Below, piece by piece: positions 7,643-63,028 of a DNA stretch of 64,000 nt. The number at the start of each line of letters is the position of its first letter. Position 1 is the first letter of the stretch. The stretch lies in the NCBI RefSeq assembly GCF_010993705.1, contig NZ_WOFO01000007.1, positions 124,001 to 188,000 of the forward strand. The letters run 5' to 3'. A program made the translations under genes and the position numbers. Under the pieces are notes generated by a model. That model ran no database searches and was not told the origin of the DNA. It saw only the letters and a program-made list of their open reading frames with translations. The DNA comes from Cyclobacterium sp. SYSU L10401. Its GTDB lineage: Bacteria > Bacteroidota > Bacteroidia > Cytophagales > Cyclobacteriaceae.

Positions 7643-8767
7643 ATGGCAGGTATATACATCCATATTCCTTTTTGTTTGCAGGCCTGTCATTATTGTGATT
7701 TTCATTTCAGTACCAACAGAAAGCATGCACCAGAAATGGTCAGCATGATCTGCCGGGAACTGAAACTCAGAAAGGATTATTTGCCGGAAGGAGAGGCCAT
7801 TCACACCCTCTATTTCGGAGGAGGTACCCCCTCTCTTCTGACAGCAGACCAAATCCGGGAAATACATGATGCCATCCATACCCATTTTGATTGCCAGCTG
7901 CTGGAAACCACTTTAGAGGCCAATCCGGATGACCTGGAAGCTAAAAAATTAGATGCATGGCTCGCCCTTGGGATCGACCGGCTAAGTATTGGTATACAGA
8001 GTTTTGATGATGATGTTTTAAAATTCTACAACCGGTCGCATAACGCCAGGGAATCGCTGCTGGCTATTGATAAAGCCAGAAAGGCCGGGTTCAAATCCCT
8101 GTCGATGGATTTAATCTATGGATTCCCCTATAAGGATCACAGCATTTGGCAAGCAGACCTCGCACAAACCCTGGCATTGACTCCGGACCATATCAGCTCT
8201 TATTGCCTCACCATAGAGCCAAAGACAGCACTTGGGGTTTGGGAGAAAAAGGGGAAATTTCAAGCGGCCTCGGAAGATTTTCAGGCCGAGCAATTTGAAA
8301 TCCTACAACAAAGCCTGGAAAAAGCAGGCTACCTACAATATGAAATCTCTAATTTTGCGAGAGACAAGGCCTTTTCCCTGCACAACAGCAATTATTGGAA
8401 GGGTGTGCCCTATTTGGGCATAGGCCCGGGAGCTCATTCATTTGACGGAGCGCACAGAGGATCTAATATAGCTCATAATACCCGCTATATCCGCTTGCTG
8501 GAAGAAAACAAACCGGCCTTTCGGCAGGAAACACTATCCGCTACTGAGCAAATCAATGAGTACCTGCTCACCTCATTGCGGACAATCTGGGGAATTGATC
8601 CAGCTTTCCTGTTGGAAAAATTTGGTTGGGACCTGCTAAAGGAAAAGAAAAAAGCCCTTTCTGACATGCAGCAGCAGGGTTTGATCCAAATGGAGTACCA
8701 GTCCATCAGCCTTAGCAATAAAGGAAAACTCTTGGCAGATTACCTGGCTGCAAAGTTATTTATCTAA
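7643..8767 (+). CDS. hemW: Radical SAM heme chaperone HemW
   Basis: Coproporphyrinogen-oxidase-like radical SAM protein that binds heme and is thought to insert it into target proteins; often misannotated as HemN. The iron-sulfur cluster motif CxxxCxxC is at Cys11, Cys15, Cys18 (HIPFCLQACHYCDF), followed by the glycine-rich TLYFGGGTPSLL, LEANPDDL, and RLSIGIQSFDDDVL. The C-terminal HemN_C domain includes YLGIGPGAHSFDG. The 374-residue length is typical. The CxxxCxxC motif followed by His-Tyr-Cys-Asp, not the extra cysteine of true HemN, supports HemW. The DUF721 gene follows after 22 bp. Confidence 0.92.
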   Translation: MAGIYIHIPFCLQACHYCDFHFSTNRKHAPEMVSMICRELKLRKDYLPEGEAIHTLYFGGGTPSLLTADQIREIHDAIHTHFDCQLLETTLEANPDDLEAKKLDAWLALGIDRLSIGIQSFDDDVLKFYNRSHNARESLLAIDKARKAGFKSLSMDLIYGFPYKDHSIWQADLAQTLALTPDHISSYCLTIEPKTALGVWEKKGKFQAASEDFQAEQFEILQQSLEKAGYLQYEISNFARDKAFSLHNSNYWKGVPYLGIGPGAHSFDGAHRGSNIAHNTRYIRLLEENKPAFRQETLSATEQINEYLLTSLRTIWGIDPAFLLEKFGWDLLKEKKKALSDMQQQGLIQMEYQSISLSNKGKLLADYLAAKLFI

Positions 8768-8789
8768 AGAATCAACTTATCTTTATGGC

Positions 8790-9104
8790 ATGAAGAATTA
8801 TCCAAAAGGCAACCAGAGAACCAGTAATACCTCCCCACTAAAAGAGGTTTTTGAGGAGCTTTTGGAAGCCTACAAGCTGAAGGATAAATATTCAGAAAAA
8901 ACCGTCATACAAGAGTGGGGATTGCTCATGGGGAAAACAGTGGCCTCCCGGACCCAAAGTCTTTCCATCAGAAAGAAAATCCTCTATGTCAAAATAAGTT
9001 CAGGACCCCTTAAAAAGGAAATGGCCATGAACAAATCCAAAATCCTCCTACTTATTGAGGAGAAATACGGAAAAGCTGTCGTGGAGGATTTGGTCTTGCT
9101 ATAA
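8790..9104 (+). CDS. DUF721 (DciA-like) small protein
   Basis: Small 104-residue cytoplasmic protein of the DUF721 family. The segment VIQEWGLLMGKTVASRTQSLSIRKKILYVKISSGPLKKEM carries the conserved pattern of a tryptophan-containing helix, then a KH-like strand-helix ending in a pair of lysines. Family members related to DciA load the replicative helicase in many bacteria, but short Bacteroidota members have not all been tested, so a replication role is inference. It is probably cotranscribed with hemW and is followed by a hairpin that may be the terminator. Confidence 0.82.
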   Translation: MKNYPKGNQRTSNTSPLKEVFEELLEAYKLKDKYSEKTVIQEWGLLMGKTVASRTQSLSIRKKILYVKISSGPLKKEMAMNKSKILLLIEEKYGKAVVEDLVLL

Positions 9105-9110
9105 AGAAAA

Positions 9111-9153
9111 GGAGCGGAATAATTTTTTCTTATCCCGCCCCGATTCACTTTTT
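9111..9153 (+). terminator. Possible terminator of hemW-DUF721
   Basis: GGAGCGGAATAA pairs with TTATCCCGCCCC (10 of 12 positions) across a 7-base loop, and a run of six T follows a few bases later. It starts just after the DUF721 stop codon. Confidence 0.45.
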
Positions 9154-9311
9154 TCTTTCCGTTGTTAACAACCTCTCTCCGCTGAAACACTCCTCCAGGC
9201 AAGCAAAATATCACTTAATCAGTGGCCAAGACATCAAATATTCATAGCTGATTTAGGAAAGTGTTCGCTTCCTTCCAGGATGAAAAACTCAAGGCTGCGC
9301 CGGGGTTGAGA

Positions 9312-51571: not shown

Positions 51572-52861
51572 CTAGACAATTGTATGAATCCCATATAAAG
51601 GAATATTGATTAACCAGTCATCCTCCCTGTAATTTGATAAAGAGGTGCGAATATTGGTGACCGTTTTATATTTTTCTACAAATACCTTCAAACTTTTTGC
51701 TTTCAAATTTTCTTCCGCTTTCACTTCAATTGGAATGATCTGTCCCTTAAGTTGGATGATGAAGTCGAGCTCGGCGGTGGCACTGTCGGCTGACCAATAA
51801 GCTGGTTCTAATCCCAACGCCACCAATTGTTGTAAAACAAATTGTTCGGAAATGGCTCCCTTAAACTCCTCAAAAAATTGATTACCTTCCAAAATTGTTT
51901 TGGCATCCAAGTCAACCATAGCCCCCAAAAGGCCTATATCTAATAGAAAAAGCTTAAAAGCTCCAAAGTCTTGATACGCCTTCAACGGAATTCCTGCTTT
52001 TGAAACCCGATTGACTTGATGAATTAGGCCGCAATCTTTTAACCATGCCAATGCCATCTCGAAATCTTTGGCCCTAGCTCCCTTTTTGACCTGACCGTAG
52101 ATAAATTTTTTATTCTCTTTGCTGAGTTGAGAAGGAATGGCATTCCAAACCATCCGTATCCTTGGCACAATATCAAATGGGGCATGTTTCGAAAAATCTT
52201 GTTGATAGGCCTCCATGATTCTAGTTTGTACAGATCTAACAAGCACTAGGTCTTTTGTATCAATAAAGGTCTGAACAGCCTCAGGCATTCCGCCTATGAA
52301 AAAATAGTGTTTGAGCAGATTCTTTAGCTTTTGTGCAAAAGGCTTGACCATGTCCCACTGCTGTGTATGAAGTAGCTGATTCAAGGATTCCTCCCCTAGA
52401 GCATCCATAAATTCTTCGAAATCCAGCGGATAGAGATCCATGAATGCTACCTTTCCAACAGGGAAAGAGGTTTCCCGATGCAGTGCCACTCCCAATAATG
52501 AACCTGCTGCTATCACATGGTAAGAAGGGGCATTTTCTTGAAAATATTTCAAGGATGTTAACGCACCTTTGGATTCCTGAATCTCATCTAAAATCAACAA
52601 GGTATTTTCAGCGTCTATTTTAATTCCTGTTTCAATCTGAAGGGCCGTGAGCAAGCGGTCCGTATCAAAGTCTTGTTCGAAAACCTGCCTCATTGTCTGA
52701 TTACTTTCAAAATTCACATAGGCAACCTGCCCGTAGTGCTCTGTACCAAAAGCTTTCATCAACCAGGTTTTACCAACCTGTCGCGCTCCTCTAATAATTA
52801 ATGGTTTTCTTTTGGGGGAATTCTTCCAAGAGATAAGGGATTGAAATAATTTTCTTTTCAT
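51572..52861 (-). CDS. AAA ATPase with DUF4143 nuclease-like domain (first of three)
   Basis: 429 residues. The AAA domain has Walker A GARQVGKT at 25-32 and Walker B TLLILDEIQES near 90; a central winged-helix region follows, and the C-terminal DUF4143 domain has the PD-(D/E)xK-like trio in AELDFII and IPIEVKAEE. Such proteins are widespread in Bacteroidota and Archaea, and their job is unknown. The gene stands alone. Just upstream are an inverted repeat and a second degenerate copy 32 bp farther (see 52885-52943), so autoregulation or self-recognition is possible. Related to those at 53.1 and 57.6 kb but not close. Confidence 0.87.
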   Translation of the reverse strand: MKRKLFQSLISWKNSPKRKPLIIRGARQVGKTWLMKAFGTEHYGQVAYVNFESNQTMRQVFEQDFDTDRLLTALQIETGIKIDAENTLLILDEIQESKGALTSLKYFQENAPSYHVIAAGSLLGVALHRETSFPVGKVAFMDLYPLDFEEFMDALGEESLNQLLHTQQWDMVKPFAQKLKNLLKHYFFIGGMPEAVQTFIDTKDLVLVRSVQTRIMEAYQQDFSKHAPFDIVPRIRMVWNAIPSQLSKENKKFIYGQVKKGARAKDFEMALAWLKDCGLIHQVNRVSKAGIPLKAYQDFGAFKLFLLDIGLLGAMVDLDAKTILEGNQFFEEFKGAISEQFVLQQLVALGLEPAYWSADSATAELDFIIQLKGQIIPIEVKAEENLKAKSLKVFVEKYKTVTNIRTSLSNYREDDWLINIPLYGIHTIV

Positions 52862-52884
52862 GTTGAGATGGTTGAAATTCTAAA

Positions 52885-52943
52885 TTACATTTTTTCAAAG
52901 GAAAAAATGTAAAAAAGCACACCTTTTCAAAGGAAACATTGTA
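52885..52943. repeat. Palindrome with a second copy at 32 bp, upstream of the first DUF4143 ATPase
   Basis: TTACATTTTTTC and GAAAAAATGTAA are perfect 12-bp arms with a four-base centre (52885-52912). A degenerate copy with the same TTTTCAAAGGAAA core starts at 52924, exactly 32 bp after the first core at 52892. The ATPase start codon is 24 bp downstream on the minus strand. Confidence 0.75.
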
Positions 52944-53054
52944 CCGTCCCACATTTTATTAAACTAACCCCCTATCTCCTTTGTCCGAAGACGCATTACC
53001 TTTCAGTTACGGGAAATTCCGAAAAGGATAATAACTGGCCATTAGCCGGAACAG

Positions 53055-54182
53055 CTAATTTTCATCTGCTCCAACAAATTTCCTAAAGTTCTCCTTAGTA
53101 ACGAACTCCACGGCGGCGGCGTAGGTATTTACAAAAATGGCCGGAATATTCACCTTAGCTTTGGGATTCCATTTGAATTCAAAAGCTGTGATTTTCCCAT
53201 CCGACTCCTCCACATAGTCAATTTCCTGTTGGTGCCTAGTCCGCCAAAAATAAGTATTGCAGTACCTTTTGTAATAATGGTTTCGCTTTAGCCTCTCAGA
53301 CATTAGGAAATTTTCCCATAAAATGCCTATATCATTTCGCAATCCAACTGGATTAAAATTTTGTATGATTGCGTTGCGTATGCCATTGTCGTAGAAATAA
53401 ACCTTCCGGTTCGTTTTGATCTCGTTGCGCAGGTTACGGCTAAATGAAGTAATCGGAAAAACAATATAGGACAGTTCAAGTAAATGGATATAGCTTGAAA
53501 CGGTGTTCTTGTCCACCCCTGTTAGCTGAGCCAGTTCATTGTAGCTTACTTCGCTACCGACCTGAAAGGCCAACGCCTGCAATATTTTTTCCAGTACTTC
53601 GGGCTTCTTGATATTGCCCAAAGAGAGAATATCTTTAAATAAATAACTCTGAGTAATCTCATTTAGGATTTCCCTTTCCTCACCTCTGTTATTAAGGACA
53701 TCCGGATAATATCCGTATATCAATCGATTTTCCAAATCTCTCAGGGCATCTAAATATCCGACCGATTTCTCATATTCCCCGTAGGAAATTGGATACAGAA
53801 AATATTCGAATTTTCGTCCAGTAAGTGGTTCGTTGGTGTAATTCCGAAGCTCAAAAGCCGATGAACCGCTCACAATCAACTGAACGTTTTTGAATTGGTC
53901 GTGGATGATTTTAGCGGTAATTCCAATATTTTCTATCCGTTGTGCCTCGTCTATAAAGACGATCCTTGAGTCACCTAGTATGCTTTCAATCTCTTTGGTA
54001 TTCGGATTGGTCAGCCTTTGCCTAACCAATGGGTCATCCCCATCCAAAAAAAGAAACTCCCTGCCCTGTAAAACAGCCCGGATAAGCGTGGTTTTCCCGA
54101 CCTGTCTTGCACCGATTAATAGGATGGTTTTCCCCTTGAACAGCTTTTCAGTTAGCTGACCTTTAAGGCTTCTCTCAATCAT
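53055..54182 (-). CDS. AAA ATPase with DUF4143 nuclease-like domain (second of three)
   Basis: 375 residues, Walker A GARQVGKT at 24-31, Walker B SRIVFIDEAQRIEN near 73, a winged-helix segment QLTGVDKNTVSSYIHLLEL, and a C-terminal DUF4143 part with QEIDYVEESDGKITAFEFKW carrying the Asp, Glu and Lys of a PD-(D/E)xK-like site. The protein may clamp or cut DNA, but no activity is established for this family. It is followed 193 bp later by the first ATPase in the same direction, and preceded by two tandem palindromes at 54195-54256. Distinct from its neighbours in sequence, so not a fresh duplication. Confidence 0.87.
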   Translation of the reverse strand: MIERSLKGQLTEKLFKGKTILLIGARQVGKTTLIRAVLQGREFLFLDGDDPLVRQRLTNPNTKEIESILGDSRIVFIDEAQRIENIGITAKIIHDQFKNVQLIVSGSSAFELRNYTNEPLTGRKFEYFLYPISYGEYEKSVGYLDALRDLENRLIYGYYPDVLNNRGEEREILNEITQSYLFKDILSLGNIKKPEVLEKILQALAFQVGSEVSYNELAQLTGVDKNTVSSYIHLLELSYIVFPITSFSRNLRNEIKTNRKVYFYDNGIRNAIIQNFNPVGLRNDIGILWENFLMSERLKRNHYYKRYCNTYFWRTRHQQEIDYVEESDGKITAFEFKWNPKAKVNIPAIFVNTYAAAVEFVTKENFRKFVGADEN

Positions 54183-54194
54183 AGAAATTTATGT

Positions 54195-54256
54195 ATTCAC
54201 CAAATTTACGGCTTTTTGGTGAATTAATTCACTAAAAATACAGCTTTTTGGTGAAT
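54195..54256. repeat. Two tandem 30-bp palindromes with 32-bp period upstream of the second DUF4143 ATPase
   Basis: Copy one (54195-54224) has arms ATTCACCAAA and TTTGGTGAAT; copy two (54227-54256) repeats it with ATTCACTAAA and TTTGGTGAAT. The spacing is 32 bp. The start codon lies 13 bp away on the minus strand. The unit differs in sequence from the palindromes at 52.9 and 58.8 kb. Confidence 0.8.
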
Positions 54257-54405
54257 AGAGAAATTAGCTAATCGAATTAGTTAACTTCTTCACCCTTTAT
54301 CAAACACCTCCTCGATGTCGAAACCTGTATTGCTTCAACCATAATAAACCGGGCGAAAACCGTCGCCTTCGATAACTCGTCGACCAGTCAACCTATCAAC
54401 CAAAA

Positions 54406-55560
54406 TCATAAATCTATACTAAGCCGCAAAAACCCCATTTCATCCTCCATATTCTCAAAAATCCAGATGGCACCGTCCTTTACAAAGTAGGTTTGGGGAA
54501 TAGCGGTTAACTGGGGAACGATGGACTCCGTTATCATCTCCAGGTTTTTATCAAACACTGTCAGGTAAATCGTGCAACTTATAGTGGACATATACGTCCA
54601 CCTTCCATCAACAACCCTCTCAATTTCCGCTTGGTAAGAAAATCGGTAATATCGATCGTTCCATTTATCCCAAATTAACCGCTCAAATTCAACCTCTTGC
54701 AATCCTTTGGCATATATACGATCTATGGCTTCTTCATTTTCTACCTGTTTGGGATAGTAAGGAGACTTTTGATTTGGTGTTAATTTGCTTTCAAAACTTT
54801 TCAATACCAAACTGTCATCATCCGGATTGATTACATATATCTCATTAAATACGTTATTACTCAATATAATTTTTCCATCTCCCTTCTCCAGAAATATCTG
54901 AGATCCAAAAAATCCGGTTGAAGCACCTCCCTCGACTTTGCCACTCTAAACTCTTTCAATTTATCAAAAGCCGGAAGATCCAACTCAGTTAGTTGATAAT
55001 TAAACATATCCATCTTCATCAGGTTCACGAACCCTCCTGTACTATTCGTCTTAAAGCCAAAAAAAAAGTCTATAATTACTTGGGATAACGGATCGAAGTC
55101 GAAAAAAATCTCCGCCTTCCAATACCGCTAATTCATCCAAAGCCTGCTGCAATTTCACTTCCTCTAATTTCTCTACTTCCAAATTAAAAATCGCTGCATG
55201 CTTTAGCGAACCTGCTACTAAAACGCTGTCTCCTTCCAAAAGAAAAAATGGGTGAAAAAAAGGTCCGGTACCTTGGGGCCCTTCCCTTTCAAAGGGAATT
55301 TTCTCAACGAACTTTAATTCATCCAGATCTATTTTTTCCAAGGCATGGTCTGTCGGGTTGTAATTATATAGAAATCGTCCGTCTGCTGACAATTCAGCGT
55401 AGTTCAGATTTGCCCCGAGATAAAGAATTTCATCTCCAGGATCGACCAGTACGGTATCCAACGAAAAAGTAAGTTGCCATTGTTGCCCGATATTTCCTTT
55501 TTCGGGACTTCCGCAGCCGACGATTAAAAGAAGGACGATAAAAAACCCGAATTTGCTCAT
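54406..55560 (-). pseudogene. DUF4221 propeller lipoprotein, two frameshifts
   Basis: The lipoprotein leader (LLLIVGCGSPE) and first part run from the ATG at 55560 to GGDFF, where an extra T in the seven-T run at about 55103-55109 shifts the frame. A middle piece continues (FDFDPLSQVIID, FNYQLTELDLPAFDKLKEFR), and a missing A near 54940 shifts it back to the final part with EGGASTGFFGSQIFLEKG, ending FENMEDEMGFLRLSIDL. Repaired, it is 384 residues, exactly the length of the paralog at 61874-63028. So a full-length gene is present, interrupted twice. It is flanked by the ATPase gene and the DUF2384 antitoxin. Confidence 0.85.
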
Positions 55561-55647
55561 GGTCAATAGCTAAGCGTGGAATTTAGGAACATTTTCTCGT
55601 TTTTATAGAATTTTTTCTTAACTTTCTACTTCTGATAAACCGTTTTT

Positions 55648-56061
55648 ATGAAAAGTGAGGTGATTAAAAAATCACATTTAGATCCCATCAGTAATTTTGA
55701 ATTGGTGGTCCAGGCACAAAAAGGAGTCGACGCTGAAATGGCCTTCGAGATATCAGCATCACTTTTAATGCCGGAGGAAGACCTTTCTCTTATCCTGCAC
55801 TTGTCAACAAAGACCTTGAAAAATTACCAAAAGGCCGAAAAAACCCTTAACCCAATAGCCAGTGAACAGGTGTTAAAGTTAAATGAACTCCGTAAAAAAG
55901 GGGAACAGGTTTTTGGCTCAGTTGAAGCTTTCAATAGCTGGCTAAAAAAGCCAGCAATAGGATTGGATGAGGCAATACCCTATCATTTTTTAAAGACCAG
56001 TGGAGGAATAGATTTGGTGATAGAAGAATTGGATACGATTGCTTACGGAGATTTTTCATGA
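55648..56061 (+). CDS. DUF2384 (Xre/MbcA/ParS-type) antitoxin
   Basis: 137 residues matching antitoxins of RES-domain toxins. The N-terminal helical domain includes EISASLLMPEEDLSLILHLSTKTLKNYQ, a helix-turn-helix, and the DUF2384 toxin-binding part follows: EVFGSVEAFNSWLKKPAIGL in pattern (read as GEQVFGSVEAFNSWLKKP), then IDLVIEELDTIAYGDFS, a typical terminal motif. It should bind the operator and the toxin. The RES toxin normally begins at the antitoxin stop; here a GC-rich 140-bp insert separates them. The antitoxin itself looks intact. Confidence 0.87.
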   Translation: MKSEVIKKSHLDPISNFELVVQAQKGVDAEMAFEISASLLMPEEDLSLILHLSTKTLKNYQKAEKTLNPIASEQVLKLNELRKKGEQVFGSVEAFNSWLKKPAIGLDEAIPYHFLKTSGGIDLVIEELDTIAYGDFS

Positions 56062-56183
56062 AATCGAGCACGAAGCAAGCGATACATGGGGGAATGATTA
56101 TCATTCGCGAGATTCCCCGTCCGACTGGCCTCCTCCGGGCGGGCATCCCGACCTTTGGTGCGGGGCAAGTTATGGCCGCTTAA
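56058..56183 (+). other. GC-rich insert with a 41-codon frame between antitoxin and toxin
   Basis: An ATG overlaps the antitoxin stop (ATGA) and opens 41 codons ending at 56183. The stretch around 56104-56180 is about 70 percent G+C by eye, against roughly 40-45 percent around it. It can fold with GGGGAAT against ATTCCCC and CCCCG against CGGGG. I do not recognise the peptide (start MKSSTKQAIHGG). It may be an inserted structured repeat or a small gene. Confidence 0.4.
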
Positions 56184-56204
56184 AGACAACTATTAACATA
56201 TGAA

Positions 56205-56680
56205 ATGCAGGTATTCCGTATTTGTTTGGAAAAATATGCCCATGACCTCATTGCTTCAGGTAAGCCCAATAGATGGAATGTTTCGGGAAATTTTGTGATT
56301 TACACCTCATCCACCAGGGCATTGGCTTGTCTTGAAAATGTGGTGCACAGAAGCAGTGAGGGACGTAACAATCTTTTTAGGGTAATGGAAATCCAGATTG
56401 ATGATGAAATCGGCATCACAAAAATCCCACTTGATTCCTTGCCGGAGAATTGGTACAAAAAAGCATCCTATCCCTTGTGCCAGAAAATAGGCAGTGATTG
56501 GTATAGAGAAGGAAAACACCTGTTTTGGAGGTTCCATCATCCATTATACCCAAGGAAAAAGTTTACATTAGCAATACCCGTCATACAGATTTTTTAATCA
56601 AAAAAATTCGATTGATGTCTACAGAGGAATTTGTTTTTAGTCCCAGGATCAAATCAGAAAATCCGGATATATTGGATTGA
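56205..56680 (+). pseudogene. RES-domain toxin, single frameshift
   Basis: NAD-degrading or NAD-modifying toxin of the RES family, partner of DUF2384 antitoxins. The first part reads VFRICLEKYAHDLIASGKP, RWNVSGNFVIYTSSTRALAC and WYREGKHLF; it then goes wrong at CTGTTTTGG (about 56522-56529). The next frame continues LEVPSSIIPKEKVYISNTRH, TDFLIKKIRLMSTEEFVFSP and ends at the stop 56678-56680. Adding one base restores 158 residues, a family length. As it stands the product lacks its C-terminal third. The R, Y, E/S positions of the active site are in the intact first part. Confidence 0.85.
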
Positions 56681-56683
56681 TGA

Positions 56684-56828
56684 TCCCGCTTTTCGGCATT
56701 TGCAATTCCGAACCCAGATAAACAGGGTTTGCAACCCTGCTTTCGAATCTAATCGTAATTAAAGGTACTATTGAACCGACCTATCCATCAAAGTAATCCT
56801 AAGAAAATTTTGAATCAAGTATATTTGT
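56684..56828. repeat. REP/BIME-like paired-hairpin repeat, copy 1
   Basis: About 145 bp, roughly 90 percent identical to 58900-59045. It contains GGCATT-TGC-AATTCC (imperfect) and CAGGGTT-TGC-AACCCTG (perfect) hairpins with the same loop TGC, a conserved segment (TTGAACCGACCTATC), and ends in TATATTTG, a -7 promoter-like element. It begins right after the RES stop. Confidence 0.85.
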
Positions 56829-56865
56829 GTTTTTGGCCTTATATTTACGACAATTAAAGAATGTC

Positions 56866-57078
56866 ATGATGGAACTTAAGTTTCAGTCCAAAGAAGAAAG
56901 CAACCGGGAGCAGCGGGAAGCATTTCTACGGCTGGCACCGAAAGACCGGTTCTACGCCTTCCTGGACCTTTGCGAAAACCTGAAAAAATTTCCAGTAAGA
57001 TCAACCAATAAATCTCCTTCAGACAGTTTTATAATTGAAATTAAAACCCATGACAAAAATCTGGAAAGAGAACATTGA
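56866..57078 (+). CDS. Small protein preceding a nucleotidyltransferase
   Basis: About 70 residues starting at the ATG at 56866 (a second ATG follows at once); the frame opens at 56827. It is charged and helical, with FQSKEESNREQREAFLRLAP and KDRFYAFLDLCENLKKFP. I do not recognise a named family, but such small proteins are often found just before nucleotidyltransferases in Bacteroidota. Its last 29 bases overlap the next gene, a sign of translational coupling, so it is a candidate toxin, antitoxin or partner. The repeat copy just upstream carries a promoter-like TATATTTG. Confidence 0.6.
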   Translation: MMELKFQSKEESNREQREAFLRLAPKDRFYAFLDLCENLKKFPVRSTNKSPSDSFIIEIKTHDKNLEREH

Positions 57079-57529
57079 TGCATTTTTAAAGGAAGCATCC
57101 AAAGAAGGGGTAAAGATGTTACTGGTAGGTGGCGGGGCGGTCAATTTCCACGGGTACCAAAGACACTCCGCAGATGTGGATTTCTGGATAGATACGTCTG
57201 AAGAAAATTTTTCGAAGCTACTCCAAGTATTTCGACGGATGGGGTATGAGATCGATAGCTTTCCTGAAAAAGTTAAAAATAAGGAACAAAATATATCTGT
57301 GAAATTCTCACCTGCAGATTTAAACTTAGAATTGATTACAAATTTTCAAATTGGAAAAAGCTTTGATGAGGCCTTTTCCGAAAGTGAAAAGGTTGAAGTT
57401 AGCAAATTTGGAGTACTCAAATGGAATGTCCTCAACTTATTTGACTTGCTGGAAAGCAAAAGACGAGCAGCGAGACCTAAAGATTTGTTGGATATTTTAG
57501 AATTGAAATCAATTCATAAGTTGGAATAA
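57050..57529 (+). CDS. Nucleotidyltransferase-fold protein (AbiEii/MNT-like)
   Basis: 159 residues from the ATG at 57050 (the frame opens at a TTG at 57035). The catalytic motif is GGGAVNFHGYQRHSADVDFW: a glycine-rich strand then two aspartates in the DxD pattern, as in nucleotidyltransferases of the AbiEii, MntA and HepT-associated groups. A later carboxylate is in SPADLNLELIT, and the C-terminal part contains LLDILELKSIHKL. These groups act as toxins or as antitoxins that modify a partner. It overlaps the preceding small gene and lies back-to-back with ATPase three. Confidence 0.78.
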   Translation: MTKIWKENIDAFLKEASKEGVKMLLVGGGAVNFHGYQRHSADVDFWIDTSEENFSKLLQVFRRMGYEIDSFPEKVKNKEQNISVKFSPADLNLELITNFQIGKSFDEAFSESEKVEVSKFGVLKWNVLNLFDLLESKRRAARPKDLLDILELKSIHKLE

Positions 57530-57550
57530 ATTTAATTTTAATGGGAGCTT

Positions 57551-58723
57551 TTAGTTTTTCTCTGCTCCACTATTTTTTTTAAGAGCTTCACAAAACTCCT
57601 TCAAAGAATAATTTCTCAGACCCTCTTTCAGCGGATAACCCTCATTAACCCGGGAGATAACCGCCCCCTTAGCGGCTTTTGTATCCTCCATACTAATCAA
57701 AAAGCCTTTGCTGATCTTAGGTGAAAGGGTGTTTTTGATCTCAATGGCCCATTCCACTTTTCCGGATTTAACCAGTAATAGATCACACTCCGCTCCCTGA
57801 TGGGTTCGGTAGAAGTAAAATTGGTAATCCAGTCCAAGCACATTAATTACCTGCTCTATGACGAATGTTTCCCATGAAGCTCCTATTAATAATTGATTGA
57901 TCAACTCATCATATGATTTTACGCCTACCGACGAATGCAACAGTCCTGTGTCCCGGATATATACCTTGGGGGATTTGACTAAGCGTTTTTTAACATTTCG
58001 GTGATAGGGCTGAAGGATTCGGACCATAAATGACCCTTCCAGGAATTCCAGATAGCGGGTTACTGTAGGCCGGGTAATCCCCAGTGCTCTGGCAAAATTA
58101 TCTCCATTCCACAAACTCCCCTGCACATGTGCCAACATCATCCAAAACCGTTCAACCAGCTTTGGATCCGTATTCAGCCCCAATAGGCCGAGGTCTCTTT
58201 CGATATAGGTTTTGATGAAATTTTCCCGCCACAAATTACTTATCCGCTCAGTGGATGCCAGGAATGACAGGGGATAACCTCCCCGCATCCAAAGACGCTC
58301 CATTTCCTCAATTAATATTTCTTTCAGCGTAAAAGGAGTGAGCTCGATATATCCTATCCTCCCCGCCAAGGAATCAGCACTACTCCGAATAAGGTCGGGT
58401 GATGCTGAGCCCAAGAGGATAAACCTTCCCGGCCTTCTGTCTTCATCAATGGAACTGCGAAGTTCTGCGAACAGCTCAGGCATTAGTTGAATTTCATCGA
58501 GGATAACGGTATTACCTTGATAATTCATTAGAAACAATTCCACATCACTTAGTTTGGCCCTGTCGCTCGCTTTCTCAAGATCCAGGTAAATTTTATTTTT
58601 TGCCCATGAAAGACTTTTAACCAACGTAGTCTTGCCCACCTGCCGGGGACCAACTATCCCGACTGCCGGAAATATTTCCATATATTCCTCAAACAGCGAC
58701 TGTATAACCCTTTGCTTTACCAT
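57551..58723 (-). CDS. AAA ATPase with DUF4143 nuclease-like domain (third of three)
   Basis: 390 residues with Walker A GPRQVGKT at 25-32, Walker B VILDEIQLMPEL near 75, a sensor-like LGSASPD, a winged-helix segment ALGITRPTVTRYLEFLEG and a DUF4143 end with AECDLLLVKSGKVEWAIEIK, supplying the Asp, Glu and Lys of a PD-(D/E)xK-like site. It converges on the nucleotidyltransferase gene (22 bp apart), so the two stops are close. A 47-bp perfect palindrome lies 56 bp upstream of the start. Together with both repeat copies it makes a compact block of about 2.4 kb. Confidence 0.87.
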   Translation of the reverse strand: MVKQRVIQSLFEEYMEIFPAVGIVGPRQVGKTTLVKSLSWAKNKIYLDLEKASDRAKLSDVELFLMNYQGNTVILDEIQLMPELFAELRSSIDEDRRPGRFILLGSASPDLIRSSADSLAGRIGYIELTPFTLKEILIEEMERLWMRGGYPLSFLASTERISNLWRENFIKTYIERDLGLLGLNTDPKLVERFWMMLAHVQGSLWNGDNFARALGITRPTVTRYLEFLEGSFMVRILQPYHRNVKKRLVKSPKVYIRDTGLLHSSVGVKSYDELINQLLIGASWETFVIEQVINVLGLDYQFYFYRTHQGAECDLLLVKSGKVEWAIEIKNTLSPKISKGFLISMEDTKAAKGAVISRVNEGYPLKEGLRNYSLKEFCEALKKNSGAEKN

Positions 58724-58778
58724 GGATTCATTTGTGTTCCATGTAAATATAGGTTGAAATAAAGACTTTAAAAAAATA

Positions 58779-58825
58779 TTTTACCATGAAAATCGAAAAT
58801 ATAATTTTCGATTTTCATGGTAAAA
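58779..58825. repeat. 47-bp perfect palindrome upstream of the third DUF4143 ATPase
   Basis: Arms of 22 bp with a 3-base centre (ATA), beginning TTTTACCATGAAAATCG at 58779 and matched exactly by its complement at 58804-58825. It lies 56 bp upstream of the start codon. It has no T-tail on either strand beyond A/T sequence, and its length and perfection are unlike a normal terminator. Confidence 0.88.
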
Positions 58826-58899: not shown

Positions 58900-59045
58900 T
58901 CCCGCTGTTAGGCATTTGCAATGCCGAACCCAGATAAACAGAGTTTGCAACCCTGCTGTCGTATTTAATCGTAATTAAAGGCGCTATTGAACCGACCTAT
59001 CGATCAAAGTAATCCTAAGAGAAATTTTAAATCAAGTATATTTGT
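58900..59045. repeat. REP/BIME-like paired-hairpin repeat, copy 2
   Basis: Second copy of the 145-bp element, with GGCATT-TGC-AATGCC now perfect and CAGAGTT-TGC-AACCCTG imperfect, complementary to the state in copy 1. It ends in TATATTTG, with no plus-strand gene beyond it. The 444-bp gap 58724-59167 also holds the 47-bp palindrome; the rest (59046-59167) shows nothing I can name. Confidence 0.85.
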
Positions 59046-59167
59046 CTAATATGACCTCCTATGCCTTATACGACTCCCTGTTACTTGAATCACATAGGTG
59101 CCTACTTAATGTCCGGTTAAAAAAGTTCATTCTCAGGATGGTGGTGAAATCGGAAAATCAGCAACCA

Positions 59168-60013: not shown

Positions 60014-60409
60014 CTACGTAAAAAGCTTGATTGGAAAATGCCTTGAGATATGGTCAAAGTCTCTATCTGCATGATAGAAAGTAACATCAAATACCAATGC
60101 GTAGGATGCAATTAGGCAGTCCATGCTTTTGCGGACGGTGACACCCTTTTTTCTTAAGTTAAAGTATAATTTAGCAGCATTTACGGCCATCATTTTAGGG
60201 TCAGCTTCTAAAAACCGGATGCTCATCAATTGTTCTGAGAGCATTTCAAATGTTGCAAGATCCTTTACTCCCTGTAGAATTTCCTGAAGTATCGGAGGGC
60301 AAATACAAACCTCATTGCTGAGAATATGTTTCCGGACTATCCGAACCAGTTTTTCATCCTCTCCCCTGAAAAATTCTATCCAGATGCTGGTGTCAATCAA
60401 AAGAACCAT
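60014..60409 (-). CDS. vapC: VapC-type PIN-domain toxin
   Basis: PIN-domain ribonuclease toxin, 131 residues. The four acidic positions are visible: Asp6 in LLIDTSIWIEFF, Glu43 in PPILQEILQG, the Asp in KSMDCLIASYAL (about 98) and the Asp in YHADRDFDHIS (about 115-118). These form the metal site that cuts tRNA or mRNA. The start codon is 3 bp after the vapB stop. Length and arrangement are normal, so the module looks functional. Confidence 0.92.
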   Translation of the reverse strand: MVLLIDTSIWIEFFRGEDEKLVRIVRKHILSNEVCICPPILQEILQGVKDLATFEMLSEQLMSIRFLEADPKMMAVNAAKLYFNLRKKGVTVRKSMDCLIASYALVFDVTFYHADRDFDHISRHFPIKLFT

Positions 60410-60665: not shown

Positions 60666-61811
60666 TTACAAATCAACCCTAAGACGCACAAACCCCATCT
60701 CATCCTCCAGATTGACGAAGACCCAAAGCATCCCATCTTTAATAAAATGCCGTAAAGGTTTCTCGGTTAAAAAGGGAAGCTCGGCCTCCTGGATCAGGTT
60801 CAACTCCTCATCGTACAAAGCCAGGTAAACATTAGCTCCGGCAGGCAGGGGAAAAAGTCCTTCCGTTATTTCGCTTTCATAATAATTCTCGTAAAATAAC
60901 CGCCAATACCGTTTGTTCTGCCCATCGTAAACAGGCAATAAGTAATGCGGTCCTTCCATCAATTGCTGAAAGTACCTGGAAAACTCACCTGCAGCAGCAA
61001 AATCACGCCCCTTTGCCGTATTCTCCGACTCCATCCACTCACTATTGGAGGGAACAGCCTTTATGGTATCGGCTTTCGGGTTGTAATGGTAAAATTCACT
61101 TCCGGTCTCCGCCCCAAACAATACCCCACTGTCTACTATTTCCAAGTAAATCTCGGCTTCATGATAGGCGTAGTTCTCCCCATCATTTAAAGAAGCGGTA
61201 TAATTCCCTAACTTATCCAATAAGGGTAAGGAATAGCGGTGGATTTGATGTTGATCCAGATCCAACCTGACAAACGATGCCAGCTCGTTTCGAAAAGCTT
61301 TTGCAAGGCCATATGCTTCCCCTTCACCGGAAGGATCCACCTGAACCCCTATAAGGGATTCCCTATCGCTAAGAACATCCCCGGAAAACTCCTTCGGATC
61401 CAGCTTCCAGGAACGGTCAAGTTTGCCACCTTGGTCAAAAACCATTGCCCCATTCCATGTGCTGAAGAAAATAGCTCCTCTCTTCCATCCCCTGAGGGAA
61501 TGGATACCCCTTAGTCCGTCGGGACCTTCTTTTTCAAAGGGAATTTTTCGGTCCAGAACCAGGCAATCCAGGTCGATTTTTTCGAGTTGGTGTTGCTCCA
61601 GGTCAAAATTGTACAGGTACCGGTGATCCTCGCTCAGACCGGAAAGCTCAAGCCCCCACTTGAGAAACAACAGTTCCTCTCCCGGATCAATCTGTACGGT
61701 ATCCACGCTGATTGTGAGTTCCTGAATCTCCTTTTCCGCCGGAGAACCGCAAGACGTCAGCATAAAAATCAAACCAAATACAAAGCATAAAATGTCAAGC
61801 GGATTTTTCAT
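60666..61811 (-). CDS. DUF4221 propeller lipoprotein (paralog)
   Basis: 381 residues with a lipobox leader (FGLIFMLTSCGSP), then ISVDTVQIDPGEELLFLKWG, HRYLYNFDLEQHQLEKIDLD, IPFEKEGPDGLRG and a C-terminal LWVFVNLEDEMGFVRLRVDL. These are the DUF4221 landmarks: an N-terminal DTVxxDxxxEILFL and the closing ENxEDEMGFxRL. It probably forms a beta-propeller in the periplasm or at the surface; no catalytic residue is evident. It lies 62 bp downstream of the next paralog in the same direction, so the two are probably cotranscribed. Confidence 0.83.
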   Translation of the reverse strand: MKNPLDILCFVFGLIFMLTSCGSPAEKEIQELTISVDTVQIDPGEELLFLKWGLELSGLSEDHRYLYNFDLEQHQLEKIDLDCLVLDRKIPFEKEGPDGLRGIHSLRGWKRGAIFFSTWNGAMVFDQGGKLDRSWKLDPKEFSGDVLSDRESLIGVQVDPSGEGEAYGLAKAFRNELASFVRLDLDQHQIHRYSLPLLDKLGNYTASLNDGENYAYHEAEIYLEIVDSGVLFGAETGSEFYHYNPKADTIKAVPSNSEWMESENTAKGRDFAAAGEFSRYFQQLMEGPHYLLPVYDGQNKRYWRLFYENYYESEITEGLFPLPAGANVYLALYDEELNLIQEAELPFLTEKPLRHFIKDGMLWVFVNLEDEMGFVRLRVDL

Positions 61812-61873: not shown

Positions 61874-63028
61874 TCACAAATTAAAACTTAGCCTTACAAA
61901 GCCCATCTCATCTTCCATATTCTCAAAAATCCAGATTTTTCCGTCTTTGGCAAAATATTTTCCAGGAACCTTCTTGAGGTCGGTAACCAAAGATTCTCCT
62001 ATCAGGGCCAAGTTCTTGTCATAAACTGAAAGATACACCCTTGCCCTATCCGGACTCAGATCCTGCATGGGTTTTTGGGAATTCGGATTATATTCGCCCA
62101 TAGAGGAAAACCGGTAGAAAAACCCTTTTTCAGCATCCCAAAAAGGGGCTCCATAGGAAATTTCTTCATTGATGGACCGGTAAACAGCATTCATTTCTTT
62201 CTCTGAACTAACTTCATTGCGGTACACCCCAGACTTTTCAGCCGGCATGATCCGGCTTTCGTATGTATAATGCAGCAAAGTATCTGTTGCCTGATCCAAC
62301 ACATAAAGCTCATTGCTTACACCTGAACCCAAAATGACTTTACCTCCTTCCAGCACAAGGTAGGAACCAGGGTAAACAGAACTTTTGGATGGACCATCGG
62401 TAAAAGTCACCTTAAATGGGCGGACCCGTTCCATAATCACAGTAGGTATCCGTTTGATTTCTTTGTTAATGCCATCAATGATGGCCAGTTCATATTCATC
62501 CGTATCGAAGAGGGTGGCCATCCCATAAAAAACCAGGGAATCATCAGCAAAACCTTTGATCCGGTCCAACTGCTCATTTCCTGAAAAATGTCCCGAAGGC
62601 TCACCCAATTTGTTTAGCGGAAGGTCCATCACCTTTTTTCCCTTCCAGGTAAATATACCCCCCACTCCTGTATAACTTCCAAAATAAAGGCTGTCTGTGT
62701 TTACCGGAAAGATGGTAAAAACTCTTTCGCCAATGCCATTGGGTCCCTGTTTTTCAAAGGGAATTTTCTCTATCAATCGAAGCTCGTCCAGATCAATCTT
62801 TTCAAGGGTGTAGTCAAAATGATTGAAATTATACAAGTATCGGTGATCCGGAGAAAGAAAGGATTGAGAGAGCCATCCATTCAAAAAAAGGATCTCATCT
62901 TTGGAATCCACCATTACCGTATCCATAGAAAACGACATGCTATTTCTATTTGCAAGCTTGGATTGCTGTTCAGGACTTCCGCATGAAACCAATAAAATTA
63001 TGGAGAAAAGGAAAATAAAATCTTTCAT
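61874..63028 (-). CDS. DUF4221 propeller lipoprotein (paralog)
   Basis: 384 residues with leader ending LLVSCGSPE and the same landmarks: FSMDTVMVDSKDEILFLNGW, PDHRYLYNFNHFDYTLEKID, KIPFEKQGPNGIGERVF and the C-terminal IWIFENMEDEMGFVRLSFNL. It is the same length as the repaired broken copy at 54.4 kb and shares the most landmarks with it. The set is not adjacent in one block, since the RES, ATPase and VapBC genes lie between, which suggests an older duplication and later insertion. The role is unknown; upstream lies the XRE regulator on the same strand. Confidence 0.83.
   Translation of the reverse strand: MKDFIFLFSIILLVSCGSPEQQSKLANRNSMSFSMDTVMVDSKDEILFLNGWLSQSFLSPDHRYLYNFNHFDYTLEKIDLDELRLIEKIPFEKQGPNGIGERVFTIFPVNTDSLYFGSYTGVGGIFTWKGKKVMDLPLNKLGEPSGHFSGNEQLDRIKGFADDSLVFYGMATLFDTDEYELAIIDGINKEIKRIPTVIMERVRPFKVTFTDGPSKSSVYPGSYLVLEGGKVILGSGVSNELYVLDQATDTLLHYTYESRIMPAEKSGVYRNEVSSEKEMNAVYRSINEEISYGAPFWDAEKGFFYRFSSMGEYNPNSQKPMQDLSPDRARVYLSVYDKNLALIGESLVTDLKKVPGKYFAKDGKIWIFENMEDEMGFVRLSFNL

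Follow-up and report, generated by a model that had tools for sequence, protein, structure and literature searches.

Upstream repeat sites of DUF4143 ATPase genes track the encoded protein and suggest a self-regulating one-gene unit

Plasmid Rep proteins with their iterons and archaeal Orc1/Cdc6 proteins with their origin recognition boxes (ORB) are initiators encoded beside their own repeats, with autoregulation and linked protein-site specificity, and the Orc proteins combine an AAA+ domain with a winged helix. In type II toxin-antitoxin operons, accessory genes are autoregulated via palindromic operators. Here we describe three DUF4143 ATPase genes of Cyclobacterium sp. SYSU L10401, each preceded by its own repeat site, in a stretch of 64,000 nucleotides (contig NZ_WOFO01000007.1, positions 124,001 to 188,000; hereafter the window), and compare them with their relatives. 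They match PDC-S01, a PADLOC single-gene phage-defence candidate that likewise consists of an ATPase fused to PD-(D/E)xK (PMC12988326). By frequency, PDC-S01 is reported to rank fourth among the defences of all prokaryotes, with 29,494 bacterial and 9,986 archaeal detections, and most PDC-type candidates are said to await experimental validation (PMC12988326, 2026). In a rumen set it was the individual locus found most often (PMC13356809), and the Thermus AAA_14-DUF4143 gene TT_P0211 was up 6.6-fold when a plasmid and Argonaute were both present (PMC4406477).

The difference from PDC-S01 as described so far is the cognate upstream site, which is a new part for this family. The words "promoter", "operator" and "palindrom" are absent from the main text of PMC12988326, and none of the papers listed in the literature searches (titles and starts of abstracts, excluding subscription papers and preprints) describes an operator or DNA target for DUF4143 or PDC-S01. 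A related arrangement is that of RptR, a regulator of a defence locus: at the promoter of its own operon it binds overlapping repeats with a palindromic core. This repressor is a small, separate protein, and its repeats are 9 bp long (PMC12255303). In the DUF4143 case, by contrast, the ATPase itself is the likely binder, repeats are spaced by 22-23 or 32-33 bp, and site and protein diverge together. Compared with Rep/iteron and Orc1/Cdc6-ORB pairs, DUF4143 ATPases have a probable nuclease end and many copies per genome. Type II toxin-antitoxin systems differ in that the DUF4143 unit is one gene, with a regulator and a putative effector probably joined in one protein; no small partner common to all three genes was found among the open reading frames (ORFs) of the window. 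IniR differs in acting on iniBAC and in having no nuclease among its three listed domains. As in SSO1545/PAB2304 archaeal-type ATPases, the AAA domain and the winged helix that follows it form one alignable unit.

All three genes lie on the minus strand: gene 1 at 51572-52861 (429 aa), gene 2 at 53055-54182 (375 aa) and gene 3 at 57551-58723 (390 aa). A preliminary description made from the letters of the window had called them DUF4143 AAA ATPases, which is borne out by AAA_14 and DUF4143 matches well over the Pfam cut-offs and by the PDC-S01 models PDLC04786, PDLC04789 and PDLC04790, respectively. The whole genome (5.9 Mb) holds five DUF4143 genes, these three and two more (L003 and L005), and all five proteins matched PDC-S01 models (best E <=2.5e-59 each); none of the five matched in an NCBIfam search, and PHROGs gave only weak clamp-loader matches for two. 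The Walker residues and an E-x-D ... E-x-K pattern near the end are invariant among the five, and the acidic-lysine residues of the PD-(D/E)xK motif (E364, D366, E379 and K381) are invariant across 49 sequences. Together with predicted structures (predicted local distance difference test score of 90.8 for the gene 1 model), these residues support the winged helix that had been proposed and also, more clearly by motif than by fold, the PD-(D/E)xK-like end. Structural neighbours of the predicted fold include DNA-binding AAA+ proteins, among them Orc1/Cdc6 and the origin recognition complex (ORC). Since the other four copies are only 18-22% identical to gene 1, the three genes did not arise by a recent triplication; the nearest named relative of gene 1 comes from Belliella (66% identity), and no relative of gene 3 turned up when viral contigs were scanned with it.

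The upstream sites, all read on the minus strand, have mutually different sequences. That of gene 1 (52882-52943) consists of two 30-bp copies, 80% alike and 32 bp apart start to start, and within the first of them a perfect palindrome of 28 bp (52885-52912) ends 23 bp short of the ATG. Gene 2 is preceded by two palindromic 30-bp units (54195-54224 and 54227-54256; 87% alike), also 32 bp apart and 12 bp before the ATG. The gene 3 site (58779-58825) is a single perfect palindrome with 22-bp arms and a 3-bp spacer, 55 bp before the ATG. The earlier proposal that each gene has its own upstream palindrome is thus confirmed as to the sites and amended as to genes 1 and 2, where they are tandem pairs of palindromic units. 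Among the nine palindromes of score >=11 in the window, that of gene 3 ranks first (22), while that of gene 1 scores 12, tied with two others, and to the eye several of the remainder resemble hairpins of terminators. When the window was dinucleotide-shuffled eight times, each shuffle yielded 0 or 1 such palindrome, none scoring above 11. The gene 2 site is distinguished by its direct repeat, not by its palindrome score. All three genes were significant in an upstream repeat test, and two of three in a narrower test at -90..+10, because the gene 3 palindrome lies partly outside that range.

Each window site is a single locus within the genome. The gene 1 motif is paired only at its own site, with nine scattered single matches genome-wide versus four for a reversed control pattern; the gene 2 unit pattern (<=3 mismatches) recurs nowhere in the 5.9 Mb beyond its own pair; and the gene 3 arm is found in its own palindrome plus one 3-mismatch match elsewhere. 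Of the two DUF4143 genes outside the window, L003 has a palindrome with 19-bp arms whose final three bases are the ATG, and L005 has TTTGACTC-N14-GAGTCAAA, which with a score of 8 is no better than shuffles.

We collected relatives from 12 genomes of the genus and from a phylum sample of 247 genomes, 130 of which carry the family (30 loci plus 80 more, best-scoring first; left out of these 80 were short frames, one frame interrupted by a stop, loci close to contig ends and some others). A separate 80-locus set was found by alignment of the five proteins; it is mostly of the gene 1 clade, its records are named as many phyla, and its loci led to 30 further genomes. The total was 201 plus 82 genes, equal to 267 distinct proteins. 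A gene filter excluded 24 of 221 loci, including true DUF4143 genes with sites (L021, L027, L033 and L056). Start codons were assigned by a mechanical rule, taking the candidate closest to a point 72 nt ahead of the Walker motif. For each region, the scores of palindromes and direct repeats were compared with those in 300 dinucleotide shuffles (significance at p <=0.01; strict region -90..+10). Of initially 258 control ORFs, 18 DUF4143 relatives were removed, leaving 240 neighbouring ORFs; two of these (c93 and c158), which seem to share an array, were kept here and removed for the motif test below. Hosts are labelled as named in the records, many of which are metagenome-assembled genomes (MAGs) with some names possibly wrong.

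In the strict test, 141 of 267 DUF4143 genes had a significant palindrome or direct repeat, whereas among neighbouring ORFs the count was 12 of 240 (Fisher p 2e-35); a palindrome was present in 86 of the 141 and a direct repeat in 66. Stricter controls (ORFs of >=250 aa with clear upstream DNA) gave 8 of 129, and drawing one gene per 50%-identity cluster left an average of 36.8 of 74 genes with a site (p 8e-17). By source, sites were found for 2/3 genes of the window, 8/17 of the genus, 66/104 of the phylum sample, 39/77 of the 80-locus set and 26/66 of the other genomes. Genomes of the genus hold 0 to 6 DUF4143 matches each; high counts in single genomes were 39 in G271 (3.9 Mb), 31 in G280 (3.0 Mb), 28 in G277 (7.6 Mb) and 26 in G270 (2.8 Mb). 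The sister family DUF234 (PF03008) is represented by 12 loci in 198 phylum genomes, and five of the ten scorable genes (L323, L324, L330, L332 and L333) have significant palindromes just upstream (p 2e-4 versus the 12/240 controls), so the layout may extend to a wider ATPase group. Separately, an ATPase-like gene at locus L118 (minus strand, 1428-2901 in reverse-strand coordinates), presumably of the AlbA_2/Schlafen type, has its own upstream 23-bp repeats.

Site similarity follows the protein. Among 201 genes, mean site similarity was 8.0-8.2 at 20-40% protein identity, 9.0 at 40-50% and 9.8 at 50-60%, and rose to 13.6 at 60-70% and 16.2 at 70-80%, while control DNA at -300..-200 stayed at 7.2-7.4 up to 80% identity and rose only above it. 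A shared genome had no comparable effect: pairs below 40% identity averaged 7.97 within a genome (79 pairs) and 7.95 between genomes (9,696), and pairs at 50-60% identity averaged 10.2 (9 pairs) and 10.5 (316), respectively. At 60-80% identity, 58 different-genome pairs averaged 17.2 and there were no same-genome pairs. Protein identity therefore sets site similarity, and a common genome adds nothing. Furthermore, 81 of 117 genes had their strong site match among the closest 10% by protein.

The gene 1 clade allowed the same relation to be followed across hosts with a position weight matrix (PWM), trained on 20 clade genes from Bacteroidota hosts with an order-2 background and repeat-derived seeds, at a threshold that passes 5 of 238 controls. 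It matched 22 of 51 same-clade genes from other or unnamed hosts versus 11 of 194 DUF4143 genes of other clades (Fisher p 1e-14 and 6e-10). The same-clade records are named as Clostridia and relatives, Spirochaetales, Elusimicrobiaceae, Fibrimonas, Alphaproteobacteria and others. Matches lay on one strand in 30 of 32 cases, and seven of 11 match pairs were spaced 32-33 bp, two more at 64 or 66. The single word AAAAARTGT occurred in 26 of the 63 genes of the clade, with several phyla lacking it altogether, and was rare in controls (4 of 258) and in genes of other clades (3 of 104). An expectation-maximisation motif search with a simple background was dropped because it converged on an AT-rich optimum. 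With site similarity growing with protein identity and the PWM matching across hosts, the co-variation that the preliminary description had put forward as a test was found.

Domain-wise partial Mantel tests (pairs above 40% identity) gave correlations with site similarity of 0.16-0.19 for the winged helix, 0.13-0.16 for the AAA part and 0.03-0.05 for the nuclease, and the winged helix contributed beyond the other domains (p 0.003 at 40-80% identity), which is suggestive, though no proof, of the winged helix as the contact surface.

The sites may also overlap promoters, with a clear excess of promoter-like boxes at direct arrays and a partial one at palindromes. Of 38 direct arrays of Bacteroidota, 15 have TAnnTTTG, the -7 box of this phylum, within them or <=25 bp beyond their end (expected 2.8). 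TATAAT-like hexamers lie in or after 15 of the same 38 (expected 8.3) and 19 of 39 arrays of other hosts (expected 5.7), as well as inside 24 of 70 Bacteroidota palindromes (expected 9.4). Scanning the region for sigma-70-type promoters gave results at chance level.

Based on these observations, we propose that the ATPase, winged helix and nuclease form a one-gene unit that binds its own upstream operator and regulates itself, a reading to which we assign a probability of about two in three. Its components would be an AAA+ ATPase with a winged helix and PD-(D/E)xK nuclease end plus a cognate DNA site at or near the promoter, built from two or more half-sites or whole palindromes at 22-23/32-33 bp or from one long palindrome. 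An oligomer of the encoded protein would bind this site, probably through the winged helix, and repress its own transcription. Because of this repression the nuclease would stay scarce until some event, for example infection, alters the state of the ATPase or removes the protein by titration, and such derepression would serve defence. What is observed at the DNA level is a repeat site upstream of the protein's own gene that is specific to its own protein lineage rather than to the host, is spaced by helical turns and is shared between relatives together with the gene.

Several results weigh against this proposal. The expectation that palindromes would lie upstream of most homologs holds only narrowly, with direct repeats counted in (141 of 267 genes, 86 of them with a palindrome); 126 of 267 genes have neither in the strict test. 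Nine of 99 same-genome pairs reach a site similarity of 11, three of them below 40% identity; 36 of 117 strong site matches fall outside the closest 10% by protein; and the PWM misses 29 of 51 same-clade genes. As predictors of site similarity the AAA part and the winged helix are about equal, and when pairs from 30% identity are included the correlation is 0.057 for the winged helix and still 0.145 for the AAA part. Of 70 Bacteroidota palindromes only 6 contain TAnnTTTG (expected 2.5), and no excess of -10 boxes is seen in palindromes of other hosts (5 of 24; expected 4.4). Finally, linked DNA co-diverges with a gene in any case, so covariation alone is no proof of binding.

The architecture of the sites bears on the strongest alternative. 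Of 66 direct arrays, 60 have a period of 22-23 or 32-33 bp, corresponding to two or three helical turns, which fits several subunits on one DNA face. Next to some DUF4143 genes three to five direct repeats follow one another at 22-23 bp (at L196 a 23-bp unit is present about five times), and seven paralogs of G270 (L242, L271, L283, L284, L286, L289 and L290) have 23-bp arrays; the record of another locus of this genome, L109, is titled Propionibacteriaceae. By eye the G270 arrays differ, and the pair L289-L290 reaches a site similarity of 13. Rep proteins and Orc1/Cdc6 load onto their own arrays, and the DUF4143 sites could likewise be iterons or an assembly platform of an initiator- or switch-like module, whose loaded ATPase would remodel or cut DNA or sense invaders. 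These arrays, the Orc1/Cdc6 and ORC folds among the predicted structural neighbours and the retained PD-(D/E)xK residues would suit such a module, which we nevertheless consider unlikely: up to 39 copies per genome would be unusual for an origin module, the site of many members is a single palindrome, and that of L003 runs into the start codon. In a plasmid scan, 473 of 72,556 records had DUF4143 matches, and the smallest among the 30 matches listed is a 12.4-kb record which, because of its tetQ-rteC gene order, we take as a piece of a larger element, a further point against a replication module. At L312 (Bacteroides finegoldii record), the DUF4143 gene at 8109-9239 adjoins an RteC-domain gene in tetQ-rte order, and the family therefore seems to be carried on such elements.

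Site and gene are shared as one block. Comparing gene 3 with its homologs L009, L017 and L023 of the same genus, the common blocks start at the same base, <=1 bp from the outer edge of the palindrome; the block shared with L009 runs from there to 7 bp past the stop codon with both flanks unrelated, and that shared with L017 includes the 3' flank. The L009 block, the up to 39 copies per genome and the variable number in the genus could suggest that the palindrome is the end of a one-gene mobile element moved by the ATPase-nuclease. We regard this as improbable, since other pairs (e.g. L001-L016 and L002-L017) share wider flanks, the Pfam scan found no transposase domain in the three proteins, and no matching repeat was found at the downstream end of the gene for the 141 sites in 665 kb. 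The cores of these sites occurred 292 times at -130..+10 (query copies counted) and 27 times elsewhere in the 665 kb; being confined upstream, they are not terminal inverted repeats.

That a host regulator and not the encoded protein binds the sites has a precedent in RptR, a separate repressor that controls another defence island (PMC12255303). We hold this to be a slim prospect for DUF4143, as site similarity is raised by common protein sequence and not by a common genome, and the recurrence of the gene 1-clade motif in hosts named as different phyla (with the MAG names as noted) makes a host factor no easy explanation.

It is very improbable that the repeats act in RNA as a 5'-leader hairpin or attenuator: the gene 3 palindrome with its following T-rich tract scored as terminator-like and the 86 palindromes (median span 39 bp) end a median of 11 bp before the start codon, but the direct repeats of many members form no hairpin, mismatched arm positions do not favour G-T (19) over A-C (12; p 0.28) and thus give no sign of conserved RNA pairing, the T tract is by eye not kept in L009, L017 and L023, and an Rfam scan of the window matched only a tRNA. 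In summary, RNA hairpins, a host factor and terminal repeats all fit worse than an autoregulated unit.

The neighbourhood of the three genes includes further elements. A 143-bp direct repeat, 91% alike (56689-56828 and 58905-59047), flanks a nucleotidyltransferase gene (57035-57529) together with gene 3; full copies are found only there, the first 51-58 bp recur at 15 other places in the genome, and similar repeats adjoin the homologs L017 and L023. A toxin-antitoxin pair of the RES-Xre type (55648-56597; Pfam RES and Xre/MbcA/ParS) separates gene 2 from gene 3, and a PIN-domain gene (Pfam) is located at 60014-60409. The ORFs at 54406-54864 and 55051-55566 resemble pieces of a broken paralog of the genes at 60666-61811 and 61874-63028, based on ends that by eye are shared with them.

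Under the autoregulated reading, the cognate site would be a ready ligand for binding, ATPase and nuclease assays on common defence candidates and a handle to switch their expression when they are tested for defence, and a recognition code might be worked out from the large number of protein-site pairs. A bolder version, to which we give only a small chance, holds that array occupancy, and not just promoter repression, gates the nuclease as a sensor, so that invading DNA or loss of the array would shift the balance and release it. If true, the array would be a diversifying self-identity tag that allows dozens of copies to reside in one genome without cross-talk.

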